A DNA stretch of 22,536 bases from an uncultured Verrucomicrobiota bacterium (GTDB lineage: Bacteria; Verrucomicrobiota; Kiritimatiellia; RFP12; UBA1067), in assembly GCA_946615275.1 (NCBI GenBank), contig CAMOHV010000002.1, positions 1 to 22,536 of the forward strand, written 5' to 3'. The notes beneath the pieces are model-generated. The model ran no database searches, was not told the DNA's origin, and was given only the letters and a program-made list of their open reading frames with translations. Below are positions 23 to 22,410 of this stretch, in pieces (the stretch's first letter is position 1; each line of letters starts with the position of its first letter). A program made the position numbers and the translations under genes.

Positions 23-1498
23 ATGCCGCTCATCGCCTATCTGCTCGCATTCCAGAAGAAGCTCGCCGCCTCGGCGGCGCGCTTCCTGATCGCGCTATGG
101 TCGCGGCAGACCGGCAAGGGTTTTACGACGTCCTTCATCGCCTCGCGCGGCGCGATGACTGAGCCACGGTCGAAGTGGCTCATCGTCGCGCCCACCGAGC
201 GCCAGAGCCTCGAGACGCTCGACAAGTGCAAGGACTGGATCAAGGCCGCCAACCTCTCCGCCGCCGAGAGCGAGGAGGAGTTCGACGCCCTGGAGAAAGG
301 CGCGAAGGTCAAGGCGAAGATAATAGAGCTGCCGAACGGGTCGAAGATATATGCGCTCCCGGGCAAGCCCGCCTCGCTGCGCGGCTTCACCGGCTACCTC
401 ATCCTCGACGAGTTCGCGTTCTTCGAGGACGAAGACGCAGTCTGGAGGGCCGTCTTCGCCGTCATCACAAACCCGATGGCGTCCATCAAGCGCATCATCA
501 TCACATCGACGCCGAACGGTCAAGGCGACAGGTTTCACAAGCTTGTCGAGGAAAACTTTCTTGCGCCCAACCCCAGGCGCCGCGTGAAGTGGGAGGTGCA
601 GAAGACGACGATCCACGAGGCGGCGAAGGAGTGGGAGGCGGCCGGCAAGCTCGGCACTGTCGTCGACGAGACGACGGGCGAGGAGCGCCCGAAGACCGCC
701 GAGGAGTACGTCGAGGAAATCCGCGAGGCGTTCGACTGCCCCGAGGCGTGGCCCCAGGAGTACGAGTGCGAATTCCTGGACGCGAGCGCGAACCTGCTCA
801 GCTTCGACATGATAACCGCCGCCGAGAGCGTGGAGGCGACGGAGCACGGCTTCGACCCCGACGAGCCGGGCGAGTTCTACGGCGGCTTCGACTTCGGCGG
901 CATCTCCGATCCGTCCATCTTCTGGCTCGCCAAGAAGGTCGTCGAACGCGGCGCGGACGGCAAGCCGGTCGAGAAGCTCGTCACGCGCGACGTGATGCAC
1001 ATCAAGGGGCTCGACACCGGCGAGCAGCTTGACGCGGTGCGCACCCGCATCGACAAGTGCGTGCGCGTGTGCGTGGACTACACCGGCCCCGGACGCGGCT
1101 TCGGCGACGTCGCCGCGAACGGCATCCCCGGCACGGACTTCGGCGGCTGGGGCGAGTACGACGCCGACCCCAAGAAGTTCCTCAGCGGCAAGATCGAGAA
1201 GGTGACGTTCTCGGAGCAGTCGAAGCGCGAGCTGTTCACGCCGTTCCGGCTCTGCTTCGGGAAGGTCTGCACGTTCATCATCCCGCACGTCGACTGGATC
1301 CGCCAGGACTTCCACTCGATGCAGATGCTGCAGAGCGGCAACGAGTTCAAGTTCTGGGCGCCTCGCATGTCGAACGGCCACTCCGACGGCTGCTGCGCCG
1401 CCGCGCTCTGCCGCCGCGCGGCGTCGTTCGGCGGCGCACCGTCCCTGCCGCCATACGCCGGCGAGGCGCGGACGGACTACGACGAAAGGACGCTGTGA
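23..1498 (+). CDS. terL: Terminase large subunit, Mu gp28-like
   Basis: This is the ATP-driven DNA-packaging motor and headful nuclease, 491 aa. The ATPase half shows a Q-motif-like Gln11, a Walker A variant SRQTGKGF (residues 27-34), Walker B LILDE (126-130) and the coupling motif TSTPNG (161-166). The C-terminal RNase H-like nuclease half has its acidic residues at D290 (GGFDFGGISDPS), D352 (VDYTGPGRG) and D455 (GHSDG). Order and spacing match phage TerL proteins of the Mu gp28/Terminase_6 type. Mu gp28 itself is somewhat longer, so the N-terminus is compact, but the start at 23 is backed by a GAAGGAGA ribosome-binding site at 5-12. The stop overlaps the portal start (TGATG at 1496-1500), implying coupled translation. 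Functional call is firm; exact family membership is from motif recognition only. Confidence 0.93.
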   Translation: MPLIAYLLAFQKKLAASAARFLIALWSRQTGKGFTTSFIASRGAMTEPRSKWLIVAPTERQSLETLDKCKDWIKAANLSAAESEEEFDALEKGAKVKAKIIELPNGSKIYALPGKPASLRGFTGYLILDEFAFFEDEDAVWRAVFAVITNPMASIKRIIITSTPNGQGDRFHKLVEENFLAPNPRRRVKWEVQKTTIHEAAKEWEAAGKLGTVVDETTGEERPKTAEEYVEEIREAFDCPEAWPQEYECEFLDASANLLSFDMITAAESVEATEHGFDPDEPGEFYGGFDFGGISDPSIFWLAKKVVERGADGKPVEKLVTRDVMHIKGLDTGEQLDAVRTRIDKCVRVCVDYTGPGRGFGDVAANGIPGTDFGGWGEYDADPKKFLSGKIEKVTFSEQSKRELFTPFRLCFGKVCTFIIPHVDWIRQDFHSMQMLQSGNEFKFWAPRMSNGHSDGCCAAALCRRAASFGGAPSLPPYAGEARTDYDERTL

Positions 1499-3783
1499 TG
1501 GACAGACTACGCGCAGCATACAACGCATGGCTGGAGCGCACCAACCCGCTCGCGGGGCTCTCCGTGAGCCGCGCCCGGAGCCTCTACGACGCCGCCCGCG
1601 CCTACGGCTCGCCGCGCCTCCAGTACACCTACGACGAGATCGAGCTCACCGACCCCGTGCTGCTCACCTGCACCGAGCGCCGCGCCTCCGCCATCGCCGG
1701 CATGGGCTGGAAGTTCCGCGCCCGCGCGGCGGCGGACGCCACGCTCGCCCAGGAGCAGCGCGACGCGCTCCAGATATTCGCGAACGACATCGAGAACCTC
1801 ACCGAGGCACTCGAGCACCTCGACCTCGCGTTCTTCCGGGGCTTCGCCCACGTCCAGCCCATCTGGGACGGGGAGAGGGTGCGGCACGTGACCCTGCTCA
1901 AGAGCTGGAACTTCCTGCGCGACCCGGACGGCACCTGGTACTGGAACCCGGAATGCCGCGAGACGCCGTTCGGCCTGGAGCCGATCGGCCCGGACGCCCG
2001 CCTCGTGACGGTGACGCGCCGGCGCGCCATCGACTACCCCGCGCTCTCGATCCACATCCGCCACGCCCTCGGCGAGCGCGACTGGGGACGCTTCGTCGAG
2101 CGCTACGGCATCCCGCCCGCCGACATCACCATGGCCCCCAGCGCCACGGAGGCCGACCGCCTGAAGTACGAGAACACCGCAGACGCCGCGAAGGACGGGC
2201 GGAACATCGTGCTGCCAAACGGCGCGTCCGTCACGCGCGCCGGCGACACGCGCGGCGTGAACCCGTTCCTCGACTTCTGCGAGTACCAGGCCAAGCAGAT
2301 CCTCATTCTCGCCACCGGCGGCACGCTCGCCACGCTCGCCGAGGGCGACACCGGCACGCTCGCCGGGAACGCACAGGAGAACGTGTGGAGGCAGATCGTC
2401 GCCCGCGACGGCGGCGTGATATCCGACGCGCTCAACCGCTCGCTGTTCCGTCCGTTCCTCGCCATGAAGTTCCCGAACCGTCCGACGTGCGTGGACTTCG
2501 AGCTGGGCGCGGACAAGACGCCGACCGCCGAGGAGGCGTTCGAGCACGGCGCAAAGGCCAAGAGCGCGGGCTACATCATCGCCCAGAAGGAACTGGAGGA
2601 GGCTACCGGCTACACCCTCGAGAAGGACGCCCAGCCGCCCCAATCCGGCCTCATTCCCGGCCTCGCCCGTGACGCGACGCCCGCCCCTTCTTTGCAAACC
2701 GCCCCAGAATCGTTTAAAACGGGCCGCAGCGAACCGGACGGGCAAGGAGAGGTGGAAACCGTCCCCGCGCTCCTAGGGCCGTTTTTGCGCGCCCTGAAGG
2801 ATGACTGCAAACCGCTTGCAGACGCAATTGAGAAACTCATCGCGGACGGAATCACCTCGGAGAAGGCGAAGGAGCTGCTGGCGCACATCGGCGACTATCT
2901 GCCGGCAGACCCCGCGGCGGCGGCGGTGCTCGCCGAAGACACGGCCCGGCACTTCGCGACCGTCTTCGAGGCGCAGAAGAAGTTTCACGCGGAGGCGCGG
3001 AGAGGCGGAGAGGCCGAGGCCGCCGTCCCCGGTGAGCCGCTTGCGAACGCGATCTACAACCCGTGCCCAAGGTGCCACCGGCAGATGCCGGAAGATGATG
3101 TATGCCGCTTCTGCGAGGCAGAGGCACGTGCGAAAAAGGCGCAGAAGAAGTCTCACGCAGAGACCGCAGCAGCCAAGACCGTCGTTGCGGCGGCGGAAGA
3201 CCGCGAGGCCAACGGAGAGTTCGCCCCCAAAGGCACAGGCGACAAGACCGGCGGGAAGAAAGACGCTGACAAGAAGGACGGCGAAGATGGGAACGAGGGA
3301 TCTTCCGGCACCTACACCGCAGAGCACCGCGCGAAGATCGGGCAAGACGGCGACTATAAGTCGCTGGGGCTACCGTCGCTCCGCGACATCACGCCCGATG
3401 AACCGCGAGGGGAAGGCAAGACCAAGATTCCAGATGCCAGGAAGCGCATCGCCGCCGGCGAGACGGTGAAGAGTCCACTGGGAGACGAACTGACGATCGA
3501 CAAACGGACGACAGACCACTGGAAACGCACGAAGAAGACCGCTGCCGAAATCAAGGAGCGGTTGCAACACCTTGACGAGGCCGAGGCCACAATCACCAAG
3601 CCGCACGAAATATGGCAGGGCGGCGGCAAGCACAAGGGCACGTCTTACATCCGCGTGGTCAAGTCACCGTCTGGCCGCTATGTCATCAATGTCGCCGAAA
3701 TGAGAGACGGCGTTGTCAGCTGGCACATGAATGAAACGCATTACGATTTCTGGCGGAAAGGGAAGCTGCTCTATGTGCGCTGA
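1498..3783 (+). CDS. DUF935 (Mu gp29-like) portal fused to zinc-ribbon-like and PBECR-type nuclease-like C-terminal region
   Basis: 761 aa. Residues about 20-400 form a DUF935-type portal, the dodecameric ring through which DNA enters the head; a recognisable piece is the segment ILATGGTLATLAEGDTG (about 268-286) followed by the usual run into NRSLFRPF. Portals of this family usually end near 400-500 aa. Here a further ~330 residues follow: a low-complexity linker, CPRC-x9-CRFC (residues 523-539, a zinc-ribbon-like knuckle), a Lys/Asp-rich linker containing GEFAPKGTG, and a terminal domain (about 605-761) with the pattern H..A.ATI.KPHEIW...YIRVV...YVINVAE...H...DFWRKGKLLY. That pattern resembles the Phage-Barnase-EndoU-ColicinE5/D-RelE (PBECR) nuclease-like domains known at the C-termini of MuF and portal proteins. 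Codon choice is less GC-biased from about 2690 on, suggesting the tail of the gene was acquired. Start chosen at the TGATG overlap with terL. Portal assignment is strong; the nuclease is inferred. Confidence 0.88.
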   Translation: MDRLRAAYNAWLERTNPLAGLSVSRARSLYDAARAYGSPRLQYTYDEIELTDPVLLTCTERRASAIAGMGWKFRARAAADATLAQEQRDALQIFANDIENLTEALEHLDLAFFRGFAHVQPIWDGERVRHVTLLKSWNFLRDPDGTWYWNPECRETPFGLEPIGPDARLVTVTRRRAIDYPALSIHIRHALGERDWGRFVERYGIPPADITMAPSATEADRLKYENTADAAKDGRNIVLPNGASVTRAGDTRGVNPFLDFCEYQAKQILILATGGTLATLAEGDTGTLAGNAQENVWRQIVARDGGVISDALNRSLFRPFLAMKFPNRPTCVDFELGADKTPTAEEAFEHGAKAKSAGYIIAQKELEEATGYTLEKDAQPPQSGLIPGLARDATPAPSLQTAPESFKTGRSEPDGQGEVETVPALLGPFLRALKDDCKPLADAIEKLIADGITSEKAKELLAHIGDYLPADPAAAAVLAEDTARHFATVFEAQKKFHAEARRGGEAEAAVPGEPLANAIYNPCPRCHRQMPEDDVCRFCEAEARAKKAQKKSHAETAAAKTVVAAAEDREANGEFAPKGTGDKTGGKKDADKKDGEDGNEGSSGTYTAEHRAKIGQDGDYKSLGLPSLRDITPDEPRGEGKTKIPDARKRIAAGETVKSPLGDELTIDKRTTDHWKRTKKTAAEIKERLQHLDEAEATITKPHEIWQGGGKHKGTSYIRVVKSPSGRYVINVAEMRDGVVSWHMNETHYDFWRKGKLLYVR
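2971..3158 (+). repeat. Pair of 20-nt direct repeats inside the portal linker
   Basis: Copies at 2971-2990 and 3139-3158 differ at one base (pattern GCGCAGAAGAAGTYTCACGC) and are 168 nt apart, so both encode AQKK(F/S)HAE in the same frame. The first copy runs on into a GCGGAGNN-type octamer series (to about 3013). The CACGCGGAGNCGCGGAG pattern resembles dispersed intergenic repeats I recall from several high-GC environmental genomes; that link is from memory and unverified. Confidence 0.75.
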
Positions 3784-3939
3784 AAAAAGAAAATGCGCAG
3801 TTAGGATCGCTCCCCTGCGCCGAGGACCTGCTTTCGCAGACCCGTGTCAAGGCGGCGGAACCGCCCGCACTAGGACCGATGGCTGCTGGAGTCACCGGAA
3901 CGCTGCACATTTTACCACACCCGCGGAGGGAACGCAAGC
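3784..3939 (+). other. Gene-free gap with three consecutive predicted hairpins
   Basis: No convincing ORF lies between the portal stop and the protease start. Three inverted repeats follow one another: GCGCAG 3795-3800 with CTGCGC 3815-3820 (14-nt loop); CTGC 3828-3831 with GCAG 3836-3839 (TTTC loop); and GTG 3844-3846 plus GGCGG 3851-3855 with CCGCC 3861-3865 plus CAC 3868-3870. None is followed by a T-run, so a simple Rho-independent terminator is unlikely. A GGAGGGAACGC stretch just before 3940 supplies the protease ribosome-binding site. It may be a structured leader, an RNA processing site or a small RNA; no known family is recognised. Confidence 0.45.
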
Positions 3940-4974
3940 ATGAAACATAAGATTTGCAACACGGTTGCAGGGACGCTCCCGGCGGCCTGCACCGCGCACG
4001 AGGACGGCGGCGCCGGCGCGGCGCGCTGGTTCCAGACGTTCCCGCCATACGGTCGCTATCCCGTGGGCGGCACCATCAAGGGCGCGCGAGAGGACGCCGT
4101 TTTCGTGTTCGACGAGGCGGCGGCGAAGGCAATCATCGAGGACTTCCGCGCAAAGGCGAAGCGTGCGGACTGGCCGGGCGTGCTGGTGGACCGCGAGCAC
4201 TTCAGCAACGACCCCGAGAAGACGTCCGACGCCATGGCGTGGGCGCGCGAGATCCGCCAGGGCGCGGACGGCTCCATCTGGACGCGCTGGGAGTTCACTC
4301 CGGAGGGCGAGAGGCTGTGGACGGGCAAGGTGCTCGTCTCGCGCTCGCCGCTGTTCCTCAGCGTCCCGGCGAAGGGAGGGCGCGAATACCGCCCAGTCGC
4401 CCTGGAATCGATCGGCATGACGAACACGCCGCACTTCCGCGATCTTTCAACGCTTGCCGCCGCCAGGGAGGCGGCGGAGGTAACAACACACGAAGGAGAA
4501 ATCCAAATGGAAGAAATACTGAAGGCGCTCGGCCTCGCCGAAGACGCGTCCCCGGCGGACGCTGTCGCGGCGATCGAGGCGCTCAAGCAGAAAGCCTCCG
4601 CCGCGGAGTCCGCCGCAGCCGAGGCCGAGAAGAAGCGCGACGAGGCAGTGACCGAGTGCCGCAAGGTGCAGGCCGACGCGTTCATCGCCGCCAACCGCGA
4701 CCGCATCGCCGACGAGGCGAAGTGCCGCGAGATCTACGTCAAGGACCCCGAGCTCGCCACGGCGATGCTCGCCGCGTGCAGGGCGCCCGCCGCCCAGCCC
4801 GCGCAGACGGTCCTCGCGGCCGCGCGCGCCAGGACGCCCGGACGCGGCGACGCGGACGGCACCACGGCCAGGCGCGACGCCGCCGTGCTCGACTACCGCA
4901 ACACGCACAAGTGCAGCCATGCCGACGCATGGGCCGCCTGCCGTGCCGCGCACCCCGAACTGTTCGAAGACTGA
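3940..4974 (+). CDS. Mu gpI-like prohead protease with C-terminal scaffold domain
   Basis: 344 aa capsid maturation protease-scaffold. The N-terminal ~180 residues follow the Mu-like I protein pattern: VDREH (83-87, candidate catalytic His87), AMAWAREI (99-106), G.IWTRWEFTPEGE (111-124), a Ser-containing strand VSRSPLFLSV (133-142) and SIGMTNTPHF (157-166). These match the Mu family's D.EH, A.GWI, EYRYLSP and LTN.P landmarks. From about residue 190 the protein becomes an Ala/Glu/Lys-rich helical scaffold with a coiled-coil look (200-235). In Mu, gene I carries the scaffold Z as an in-frame internal start; the same arrangement is visible here. The protease would degrade the scaffold, and itself, once the shell has formed. 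The start at 3940 follows GGAGGGAACGC. An alternative, much later start would lose the protease landmarks. Confidence 0.88.
   Translation: MKHKICNTVAGTLPAACTAHEDGGAGAARWFQTFPPYGRYPVGGTIKGAREDAVFVFDEAAAKAIIEDFRAKAKRADWPGVLVDREHFSNDPEKTSDAMAWAREIRQGADGSIWTRWEFTPEGERLWTGKVLVSRSPLFLSVPAKGGREYRPVALESIGMTNTPHFRDLSTLAAAREAAEVTTHEGEIQMEEILKALGLAEDASPADAVAAIEALKQKASAAESAAAEAEKKRDEAVTECRKVQADAFIAANRDRIADEAKCREIYVKDPELATAMLAACRAPAAQPAQTVLAAARARTPGRGDADGTTARRDAAVLDYRNTHKCSHADAWAACRAAHPELFED
4493..4498 (+). promoter_or_regulatory. Internal ribosome-binding site for nested scaffold gene
   Basis: AAGGAG sits inside the protease coding region, eight bases before an in-frame ATG at 4507. Such a strong Shine-Dalgarno match is rare within these GC-rich genes and decides the nested start. 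Confidence 0.8.
4507..4974 (+). CDS. Nested scaffold protein (Mu gpZ-like), in frame within the protease gene
   Basis: 155 aa, identical to the protease C-terminus from Met190. It begins MEEILKALGLAED, then forms a long Ala/Glu/Lys-rich helix (roughly residues 10-55) and ends with a basic linker and a compact helical tail (DYRNTHKCSHADAWAACRAAHPELFED, as two short helices). Scaffolds of this type line the inside of the growing shell and are made in excess over the fused protease, which is why the Mu I/Z arrangement uses a second, stronger start. Evidence for independent translation is the AAGGAG at 4493-4498 and its good spacing; evidence for function is the position between protease and capsid genes and the helical composition. 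The independent product has not been shown, only inferred. Confidence 0.75.
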   Translation: MEEILKALGLAEDASPADAVAAIEALKQKASAAESAAAEAEKKRDEAVTECRKVQADAFIAANRDRIADEAKCREIYVKDPELATAMLAACRAPAAQPAQTVLAAARARTPGRGDADGTTARRDAAVLDYRNTHKCSHADAWAACRAAHPELFED

Positions 4975-8193: not shown

Positions 8194-8970
8194 ATGGACC
8201 CGGCGGAGATAATACGGATCAAGGAGCTGCTGCCCACGGACCTCGGAAGCGACGAGGTCAAGGAGCAGGTCGCCGCCGACATTCTCCGCCGGTCCATCTT
8301 CTCCGCCCGCATGGAGGACCTGCGCCACCTCGCCGCGATCCGCGACGTGTGCGCGGACGTGGTGGCGGGCGCGATCAACCAGGCGACCGCCCGCGAAAGG
8401 CTGCTCGCCAGCCTGGCGCGCATGGGGCACTCTCCGCTGGACGGCGGCGGCATCGCGAACCCGGCGAGCATCCGCCGCCTCGATCTCATCATCGACACGC
8501 AGCGGCAGATGGCGGCGAGCGTCGCCAACATGGCTGCGGAGACGCCGGCCACGCTCGAGGAGTGGCCCGCCCATGAGCTTGTCAGGTTCGTGGGCCGATC
8601 GATGCCGCGCGCCGACTGGCCGCAGCGGTGGCAGTCCGCCGCCGAGGCCGTGGGCTACGAGGGCGTCGCGCGGCACACGGCGCGCATGGTCGCGCTCAAG
8701 TCCTCTCCGATATGGAAGGCCCTGGGCGACGGCGCGGGCGGATTTCGCGACACCCTTGGCAATCCGTATCCGCCCTTCGCGTACAACAGCGGCCTTTCCT
8801 GGGCGGACGTCTCGCGCGACGAGGCGATCGAGCTGGGGCTCGTCGATCCTGGGGAGGGCCGCGCCCCGTCGCGGTCGGAAGTCCCCGCCCTCTCCCCGTC
8901 CGAATCCGACATTGCCGACGCCGTCTCGCGCCTTGGATTCGACGACGACATATTCAGCGACCTTGCATAG
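8194..8970 (+). CDS. MuF-like minor virion (head morphogenesis) protein, candidate
   Basis: 258 aa. The N-terminal half is helical with a RIS-like opening (ADILRRSIFSARMEDL) and a region NQATARERLLASLARMGHSP. The middle segment RRLDLIIDTQRQMAASVANM leads into PAHELVRFVGRSMPRADWPQRW, and the C-terminal part holds RMVALKSSPIWKALGDG followed by NPYPPFAYNSGLSWADVSRDEA. This series (L.LI.DTQ.Q, .ELVR....PR.DWP.RW, ALK..P.W, PPFA.NSG..W..V) is what I associate with MuF/SPP1 gp7-related minor head proteins of Mu-like phages. Such proteins sit beside the portal and are ejected with DNA. The start at 8194 follows TAGGAGAG. Its position after the tail tube gene rather than after the portal is unusual. 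Residues beyond about 215 are acidic and probably flexible. Confidence 0.55.
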   Translation: MDPAEIIRIKELLPTDLGSDEVKEQVAADILRRSIFSARMEDLRHLAAIRDVCADVVAGAINQATARERLLASLARMGHSPLDGGGIANPASIRRLDLIIDTQRQMAASVANMAAETPATLEEWPAHELVRFVGRSMPRADWPQRWQSAAEAVGYEGVARHTARMVALKSSPIWKALGDGAGGFRDTLGNPYPPFAYNSGLSWADVSRDEAIELGLVDPGEGRAPSRSEVPALSPSESDIADAVSRLGFDDDIFSDLA

Positions 8971-20634: not shown

Positions 20635-22410
20635 TCAACGATCCACCTGATGCCTCGAGGCCCCCATGCGCTCCTTCGCCTCATGCAAGAAAGAATAGAG
20701 TCTTCGACGGTCGTCTTTGGAGCGAAGGATTCGTACATGGTGTGGTTGACGCGAATCCGAGAAAATAGAATCTCGGCTGTGGTTTCCAAGATCGAATCCC
20801 AGGGCCTCTTTCGTCGCATCGTCCGTCAGTATGCCCAACGACATTATGTTATAGTATATTGTCCAATAAGGATCGCCATTTTGGAGGAACCACTCGCAAC
20901 ATACGAAATCCATACGCTCCACGTCGCACCGTTCCATCATGCCGTTCAGCATCTTAACTTGTTCCTCATCAAGAACGATTCTGTTCCTGACGGTTCGTTC
21001 ATCACCCCATACGGACTTATCGCACATAAGCAGAGTGACCTTCTCGTTCAATATCGGAATCAACTTGGGGTTGAACCAATCTCCGCGATTATAGTCATAC
21101 ACGGCATCAAACGCCTGCTCCAATTCGGAGACCACCGCGCGAAGCGTCTTGCCTGTAAAAGAGAACGAACGTCTCACATCGCCTTTGACTGAATGGTCAA
21201 TATGTAGATTTCCACCTGTATTGCTATTCCGCACCTGTATCTTGTATAAAGCTTTCATCGCATCATGCGCCGTGACATCCTTCAGCTCCATCTCCGGGCA
21301 GACACTCGAAAATACACTCGTGCCCCAGTCCACATAGTGTGAATCTCCTGGCAGGAAATATGTCATCCACCAAAAGTCATCCCCCCTTCTCACCCTTACC
21401 GAGACATCTGGCAATCTCCCGACACTCTTCCACATGTCCAGTAAGGATCCAGCGGGAAGCACGATGTTGTATTTACACGTCCACTTGGCATCGTCAGGGA
21501 CATTGCCGAAGAATCTCACTTCAGGTTTGCAGGCGAAGCTAACGCCATTTGAGATCGCGCATTGCTCGATGCCAGACAGAATTTCATACAGCGTCTTGTC
21601 GCGGAATGCCAATGTCGGCAATTTACAGGCCGCCATTGCCCGGACGTTCTCATTCCACCATAGACGGTCTGGCTCAACGCGGTTTGTCACGGCACCGCCA
21701 TGCGACACCAGCCAATCGCGCCGTTTTCCCACGCGCTCGACCGTGTCGGGGATTCTGTTCGTCAATCGTTCATGAAGCTCGCGAATCCGGTTCTCCAGTT
21801 CCGAACTGCGATACAATGACTTACGCTTTTCCTTTCCCTTGAGTCGTTCTGGCTTTGGCAGCATGGCCAATTCATCTTGAAGCTTCCGTATCTGGCACGG
21901 AATGTCCCGGCGCTCAGCAGCAAGTTCATGCAACACACCGTCCGTCTCGTTGGTACTGCAGTAGAGTCGCTCACCGACAACGCGGTTCATGGTGATCGGC
22001 CCGCCCGGCTGTCCGAGCTCAAACGCGACTTCCGTGACATTGGCAATTGTGTTCAGACTGTCGAACCTATAGTGGCGCCCGATTTTAATATCCTGCACTG
22101 AGTCGTATGTCCGGCACATGCGACATTGGCAACCACTGTTGAGCAGAAAATACTTTCCACGCAATGAATCCGGGCTAAGGATGCAGAACAGAACTGCACG
22201 GCATTTGGCATCCTCTTCAGGCGACAGCCGATCTGGATACATGCGGACGGTCTCGCCTGTGTCAAGCGTCACGCGCTTTTCATATCCCACCGGCGTGGCG
22301 ACCACGGAATTTGTCGGGCCACCGTAGTCGTCAAGCGGCATGTCATCCGCGAGTAGATGCGACTCGCTGATGGCAATGAAAATTGCAAACGGAATCAACC
22401 AGAGTTTCAT
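20635..22410 (-). CDS. Exported host-type protein with two STN-like stretches
   Basis: 591 aa on the minus strand. It begins MKLWLIPFAIFIAISESHLL with cleavage likely before ADD, so the product is exported. A Cys cluster (C94, C96, C99) follows, then a charged helical segment (about 160-220, coiled-coil-like). Two related modules appear: TLAFRDKTLYEILSGIEQCA (266-285 on) and the pair MELKDVTAHDAMKALYKI (374-391) with FSFTGKTLRAVVSELEQAFD (416-435). The pattern beta-strand, D/K-.TL, helix recalls STN or secretin N-type modules, but a real match is not shown. The last ~140 residues are unrecognised. GC content and codon use are clearly lower than in the phage genes. Start at 22410 is fixed by GGAGG at 22416-22420 on the minus strand; a second ATG there is out of frame. 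Likely a chromosomal gene, or at most phage-linked cargo. Confidence 0.78.
   Translation of the reverse strand: MKLWLIPFAIFIAISESHLLADDMPLDDYGGPTNSVVATPVGYEKRVTLDTGETVRMYPDRLSPEEDAKCRAVLFCILSPDSLRGKYFLLNSGCQCRMCRTYDSVQDIKIGRHYRFDSLNTIANVTEVAFELGQPGGPITMNRVVGERLYCSTNETDGVLHELAAERRDIPCQIRKLQDELAMLPKPERLKGKEKRKSLYRSSELENRIRELHERLTNRIPDTVERVGKRRDWLVSHGGAVTNRVEPDRLWWNENVRAMAACKLPTLAFRDKTLYEILSGIEQCAISNGVSFACKPEVRFFGNVPDDAKWTCKYNIVLPAGSLLDMWKSVGRLPDVSVRVRRGDDFWWMTYFLPGDSHYVDWGTSVFSSVCPEMELKDVTAHDAMKALYKIQVRNSNTGGNLHIDHSVKGDVRRSFSFTGKTLRAVVSELEQAFDAVYDYNRGDWFNPKLIPILNEKVTLLMCDKSVWGDERTVRNRIVLDEEQVKMLNGMMERCDVERMDFVCCEWFLQNGDPYWTIYYNIMSLGILTDDATKEALGFDLGNHSRDSIFSDSRQPHHVRILRSKDDRRRLYSFLHEAKERMGASRHQVDR

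Follow-up and report, generated by a model that had tools for sequence, protein, structure and literature searches.

What would a predicted ribonuclease (RNase) domain be doing at the end of a phage portal protein? The question is raised by a 22,536-nucleotide (nt) stretch from an uncultured Verrucomicrobiota bacterium of the class Kiritimatiellia (GenBank assembly GCA_946615275.1, contig CAMOHV010000002.1, positions 1 to 22,536, forward strand), here called the window, in which a portal gene encodes 761 amino acids (aa) as against 512 in phage Mu. Our analysis indicates that this portal gene of a Mu-like phage probably carries an exchangeable C-terminal effector cassette, one among several interchangeable ones. 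The parts of the gene are as follows.

1498–3783, plus strand: portal-effector fusion gene, one open reading frame (ORF) of 761 aa; the same fusions recur in other contigs.
1627–2610, plus strand: Portal_Mu core, residues 44–371 (PF06074, E = 7.2e-36).
2755–2982, plus strand: helical post-core region, residues 420–495, common to portals with and without an effector.
3064–3114, plus strand: CPRC-x9-CRFC zinc-knuckle-like motif, residues 523–539.
3211–3225, plus strand: hinge motif NGEFA, residues 572–576, then PKGTG; exchange starts at such a hinge in the best-resolved pair of relatives.
3313–3780, plus strand: effector module, residues 606–761, a conserved IGQ-GD-KSLGLP lead followed by PBECR2 (Pfam match 3457–3774).
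3517–3519, plus strand: codon of His674, predicted active-site residue, invariant in 30 aligned rows (model helix 68–76).
3718–3720, plus strand: codon of Ser741, predicted alcoholic active-site residue in strand 4, at least 90% conserved (model strand 139–144).

The carrier is a Mu-type portal by score (PF06074, 124.6 bits against a cut-off of 23.9). Its best sequence match among solved structures is the Mu portal (PDB 9khx, E = 2.4e-8), and its position between the terminase (2–1498) and head protease (3940–4974) genes is typical for such a portal. Relatives P0002–P0004, on other contigs, bear the same fusion with domains 98–100% identical, and it is therefore no sequencing or assembly accident. 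A preliminary description of this DNA had read everything beyond a portal of normal length as an extension of about 330 residues. Comparison with Mu bears out the extra tail, but part of the extension belongs to the portal family generally: the helical part (residues ~420–495) is present in nearly all of 39 relatives. The variable part of the portal is thus residues ~496–761, with the effector module proper at ~606–761.

The same description had placed a PBECR-type domain at the C-terminus on the strength of the motifs KPHEIW, YIRVV, YVINV and HYDFWRKGKLLY, which indeed lie at residues ~701–759. The profile for PBECR2 (phage-Barnase-EndoU-ColicinE5/D-RelE-like nuclease 2, PF18810) matches residues 654–759 with 30.2 bits against a curated cut-off of 27.1, rising to 33.9 bits when residues 602–761 are searched alone, and it scores above the Pfam cut-off in P0001, P0013 and P0041. 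Six short relatives of 157–161 aa start just ahead of residue 606, and free-standing homologues exist. The AlphaFold (AF2) model that had been called for is confident, with a mean predicted local distance difference test (pLDDT) score of 94.2, a predicted template modelling score of 0.89 and a pLDDT range of 93.3–94.2 across five models; it replaced a poorer first model (mean pLDDT 82.5; four companions 61 to 47). A helix carrying His674 comes first and strands follow, Ser741 lying in strand 4; the PBECR active site is described as a His in the N-terminal helix and a Ser or Thr in strand 4 (PMC5512222). Alignment and model agree in giving the window domain this arrangement, and together they support its assignment as a PBECR2-type domain and predicted RNase. 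A reading of the extension as a disordered tail was ruled out by the same model and alignment.

Searches for more distant likeness were less informative. Fold searches of the domain model against solved structures gave no significant match, and rows of low Z were disregarded; in a viral structure library, searched with the first model only, the top row was a large polyvalent-protein domain (E = 0.016, not significant). A sequence search of the PDB with the domain returned only two weak matches (E = 0.19 and 0.36), and NCBIfam and PHROGs profiles yielded nothing convincing on the portal extension. The match to CdiA-CT Kp342 (PDB 6cp9), a BECR tRNA-cleaving enzyme with contact-dependent delivery and an immunity protein (PMC9086364), was likewise not significant. 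One relative, P0013, is a natural variant without the stretch that holds the predicted catalytic histidine; its near relative P0043 retains the stretch.

The case for exchange comes from what similar portal cores carry. By segment comparison, cores 88–97% identical to the window's end in the same PBECR2 type (P0002–P0004), in two diverged PBECR2 types (38% and 45–46% identical), in PBECR1 (P0033, above cut-off), in an unclassified end domain (P0024, P0025) or in no effector at all (P0016–P0018). In P0013 a PBECR2 domain 82% identical to the window's is joined to a Portal_Mu core for which blastp gave no match to that of the window, and PBECR3 is found on the more distant portals L011 (43.9 bits) and L070 (40.6 bits; cut-off 30). 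Seventy-five portals, 73 of them distinct (L067 equals L019, and L024 lies within L077), form 16 core clusters at 60% identity. Tail classes are mixed in 8 of the 11 multi-member core clusters, or 7 of 9 after removal of the duplicate pair and of contig-end records, and PBECR2 is found on four core clusters; the tail clusters are single-linkage, and the PBECR1-like cluster of 30 thus merges several subtypes.

The sharpest view is given by L073 and L074, from different genomes. Upstream, their DNA is 95.4% identical for 1.7 kb, ending 6 nt beyond the hinge GRFGKGNGG; an unmatched middle of 596 bases in L073 and 484 in L074 encodes completely different effectors; and 98.4% identity resumes over 1.8 kb from the TATACC motif (TATTATACCA) onward. 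The edges of the replacement are sharp, with the hinge on one side and a non-coding 3' motif on the other. As in polymorphic toxins, the N-terminal part of these portals is conserved and the C-terminal domain varies.

The same comparison bears on a possible structural role, in which the domain would be inactive or an RNA-binding accessory in assembly, like the inactive PBECR-like domain of Mu MuF. The carrier is essential and structural, the PBECR-like domain of Mu is held to be inactive (PMC5512222), and P0013 lacks the histidine stretch. Against this, His674 is invariant in the 30 aligned rows and Ser741 is conserved. Moreover, the 73 distinct portals comprise 54 with effector-type ends, two that are truncated or out of frame (L059, P0015) and up to 17 without an effector, a count that includes three stopping at contig ends (L012, L061, L062), one that looks cut (P0039) and one that terminates in an out-of-frame remnant (P0026). 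An end that is missing from so many portals (at least three of them cut by contig ends) and dissimilar in the rest would be odd for an assembly part, and we consider a structural role distinctly unlikely.

Codon use agrees with a separate origin of the tail. As noted before, codons in the extension are less GC-biased: GC content at third positions is 0.94 in residues 1–397 and 0.75 in residues 398–761, with the fall near residues 361–420. This shift, together with the replacement of cassettes between near-identical neighbours in relatives, supports acquisition of the effector as judged from sequence. The earlier reading of the extension as acquired holds for the effector part but not for residues ~420–495, common as these are to nearly all relatives.

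Two kinds of linker precede the effectors. The zinc-ribbon-like knuckle pointed out in the preliminary description is present, and within the 39-relative protein set it matches only P0019, P0020, P0022 and P0023, which have PBECR1-type ends; similar knuckles occur in L014 and in L093, where the knuckle precedes a PBECR3-like domain. With patterns for knuckle and hinge (NGxF-type) that were written after the sequences had been inspected, a hinge was found in 33 of 55 effector portals (one duplicate), a knuckle in 18 and at least one of the two in 50; the 18 effector-less portals (one duplicate) gave no knuckle and a hinge-like string in four. The window protein alone among the portals scanned has both, and its knuckle may have been left over from a previous cassette. 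Between the helical region and the knuckle lies a HAEARRGGEAEA string (~2983–3030) that recurs in the linkers of many relatives (for example P0015–P0018, P0026 and P0036); it resembles a dispersed repeat lying within coding DNA.

Effectors of these kinds are not confined to portals. A further gene of the window is homologous to a second carrier:

8194–8970, plus strand: minor-head-like gene without effector, sharing 51% identity with the N-terminal part of L104.

This gene has no PHROG match, and its homologue in L104 ends in a PBECR1-like domain. Effector-type ends, PBECR1-like and unclassified, are found on its homologues in L009, L091, L103, L104 and L112 (32–51% identical); the L009 carrier (L009:12099–13304) scores 28 bits to PHROG 220, a minor head protein. 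A PBECR2 module of the same type as the window's also occurs in the same bacterial class on Phage_min_cap2 proteins, the MuF2 of Jamet et al. 2017: in L022 (361–1839) both domains are above cut-off, and in L023 (123–1223, minus strand) PBECR2 is just under it. The window itself has Portal_Mu as carrier and no MuF-type N-terminal one, Pfam profiles on 12 window ORFs giving no MuF and the gene at 8194–8970 having been compared with PHROGs only.

The two features that follow the portal gene concern the other edge of the cassette and the neighbouring gene.

3889–3941, plus strand: conserved non-coding 3' motif (TACCACA ... GAACGCAAGC), with its end at the start codon of the protease gene.
3940–4974, plus strand: Mu-like head maturation protease (PF10123, 57.3 bits; phrog_328, 77.7 bits).

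The gap between portal and protease (3784–3939, 156 nt) has no ORF of at least 32 aa on either strand. It had been described as a structured RNA gap. A stable fold is not borne out: the gap is no more stable than shuffled sequence (z = −0.22) and has no Rfam family match; six relatives also gave none at gathering scores. A hairpin with covariation may be present in the 5' half, as suspected by eye, but single-sequence folds and a plain alignment showed no common structure. What stands of the earlier claim is the 3' third, which is occupied by the conserved motif, with a consensus of about CGCCGCACAGTATACCACAACCC-N-GGAAAG-CAA and sites in the window, L010, L011, L063, L069, L070, L073, L074, L076, L078, L104 and others; the L009 site came from a pattern search, its nhmmer score being only E = 3.1.

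An nhmmer model of the motif, trained on 19 gaps after effectors, gave 24 matches with E < 0.03 over 531.7 kb of loci, all just 3' of effector-type coding sequence, although 18 of them are training sites that match by construction and L067 duplicates one. The effector-less portals L002, L006, L008 and L009 have no motif beside them among the 61 matches listed. In L024/L077 the portal lacks an effector and a separate effector-like frame (L077:3421–3990, PBECR2 28.4 bits) begins at the portal stop; this frame holds one in-frame stop and is followed by the motif, a split rather than fused arrangement. Searched across genomes of the class, with rough E-values calculated per genome, the motif was positive in 50 of 332, with 70 matches listed. 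In 22 of the 30 loci examined, 12 of them model sites, effector-like sequence ends within ~200 nt upstream; among loci outside model-building the figure is 10 of 18. The upstream sequences of L088, L092 (almost the same as L017), L093, L100, L104 and L113 match domains seen on portals, those of L087 and L103 match the unclassified end of L001, and those of L091 and L112 match each other and L009, with weak similarity to PBECR3 (L091, E = 5e-4). By sequence, then, the 3' motif tends to accompany effectors, on two carriers.

More tentatively, at somewhat less than even confidence, we suggest that Kiritimatiellae phages draw on a common pool of effector cassettes. Each would comprise a coding part started by a hinge or knuckle plus the 3' motif, and the cassettes would be swapped between phages and between two head genes by recombination at their ends. 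The motif or its RNA would then either replace immunity by restraining the effector or be the exchange site. Several observations weigh against a strict link between motif and effectors. The effector loci L001, L060 and L013 score poorly for the motif (E = 1.7, 1.3 and 20), and L071 has none nearby among the nhmmer matches listed; the effector-less L003 has a weak match (E = 0.088) at 550 nt; and eight of the 30 motif loci have no upstream effector (L095, L098, L102, L106, L107, L108, L109 and L111). In addition, the end of the motif resembles the ribosome-binding region of the next gene, and instead of an active site the motif may be a leader that recombination has retained.

Could the domain be a polymorphic toxin proper, killing or arresting competing bacteria or non-lysogens, with the phage as vehicle and an immunity factor held by the lysogen? 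Cassette exchange, hinge and knuckle linkers, free-standing homologues and the presence of such a module on a MuF-type carrier would all fit. However, RNA-based or distant immunity apart, no immunity gene lies just downstream of the window portal, as the preliminary description had said; there is only the 156-nt gap. Downstream sequence exceeds 1 kb in 18 effector loci (L067 left out as a duplicate), and 12 of these have a protease gene 54–220 nt downstream, as judged with a profile built from six protease seeds, of which four come from counted loci (window, L001, L005 and L011). There is therefore little room for an immunity gene, and the only ORFs of at least 32 aa in these 12 gaps are of 41 aa (L013) and 32 aa (L073). 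By comparison, a small ORF follows 89.4% of 191 MuF toxin genes (PMC5576092). Two further loci (L016, L082) have a weakly matching protease-like gene downstream, and the profile search found no protease downstream in L063, L064, L066 and L071. The portals of these last four share one core cluster, and small ORFs there could hide a partner. Taken together, we regard a polymorphic toxin with lysogen immunity as unlikely.

We think it probable instead that cleavage in the prohead frees the domain, which then leaves with the DNA on ejection and acts as an RNase. The C-terminal side of portals faces the capsid interior. Twelve portal copies would be assembled into the prohead, tails inward, and the head maturation protease encoded next door would cut the tails off, as suggested for Mu. 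The freed domain would remain in the head, enter the next cell along with the DNA and cleave an RNA belonging to the host or to a defence system; we found nothing to choose among host mRNA, tRNA and CRISPR RNA as target. The producing cell would need no immunity protein, either with the enzyme confined in the capsid or with the cell about to lyse. We infer release inside the head and ejection from the tail loss in Mu and from the adjoining protease gene: the virion structure of Mu lacks the last 124 residues of gp29, for which its authors suggest cleavage by protease I (PMC11915804), and the point of this loss aligns, by extrapolation, near residue 360 of the window's portal, where codon use changes. 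The protease at 3940–4974 is likely the enzyme that clips the portal tail, and the portal may thus be a precursor cut by the head protease. Action within the producing cell, where the fusion or the clipped domain would cut host or early phage transcripts late in infection, RegB-like and without injection, would suit a gene among late structural genes, and BECR enzymes such as RegB do cut mRNA (PMC5512222). Yet fusion to a head protein, and the existence of a second, head-protein-like carrier, point to packaging, and we rate such action very unlikely.

A PBECR-portal fusion as such is already known. Iyer et al. 2017 (PMC5512222) report PBECR domains fused to MuF and portal domains, and 2H and InPase domains fused to portals; their PBECR fusions resemble ours in the predicted RNase and in its predicted packaging and injection. 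Beyond the available text of that study, the window lineage adds cassette exchange, hinge and knuckle junctions, the 3' motif and a second carrier. The polyvalent proteins of the same study have at least two domains and are packaged and injected; the window protein has one effector, a structural domain and a knuckle. Mu gp29 belongs to the same portal family but has no effector domain, the PBECR-like domain of Mu being on gp30, its MuF protein (PMC5512222). Nudix and ART domains fused to head or portal proteins have also been described (PMC9503650). MuF polymorphic toxins (PMC5576092; Bxa, PMC11699363) share a head-associated carrier, variable C-terminal toxins and phages of gut bacteria; as far as the available parts of these sources go, the window system differs in its portal carrier, its PBECR-type domains, the lack of an immunity ORF at most loci tested, and Kiritimatiellae-type rather than Firmicutes or Bacteroidales hosts. 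Neither exchange of portal-effector cassettes nor the 3' motif was found in print, in a search outside which most subscription journals lay, and among the papers listed by our literature search none was a dedicated phage study for this gut bacterial class.

The host type is deduced from the relatives. Seventeen relative loci from genome collections belong to metagenome assemblies labelled Kiritimatiellae, Verrucomicrobia or unclassified, of which many come from rumen or gut by their titles, and virus contigs add three more (second scan; the first gave none). Portal_Mu was detected in 108 of 345 genomes of the class and PBECR2 in 6 of 288, four of them above cut-off. Two of 16 records contained MuF (PF04233), in both cases away from the portal contigs, PF06152 being outside that search. 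Phage records gave one match, an Akkermansia phage portal with 27% identity across half of the protein. The window also contains a 591-aa ORF (20635–22410, minus strand) with an overall GC content of 0.52, lower than the phage genes, and no Pfam match.

In conclusion, these findings suggest a second role for an essential head protein, as precursor of injected enzymes, with the loss of the portal tail in Mu as a possible release step. The 3' motif offers a predictive handle, having led to further effector-like genes outside its training loci. The system is relevant to how effectors might be delivered where no immunity gene exists and to counter-defence among the phages of a gut bacterial class, whose exchangeable portal ends suggest an inbuilt arsenal of weapons or counter-defences for delivery into the infected cell.
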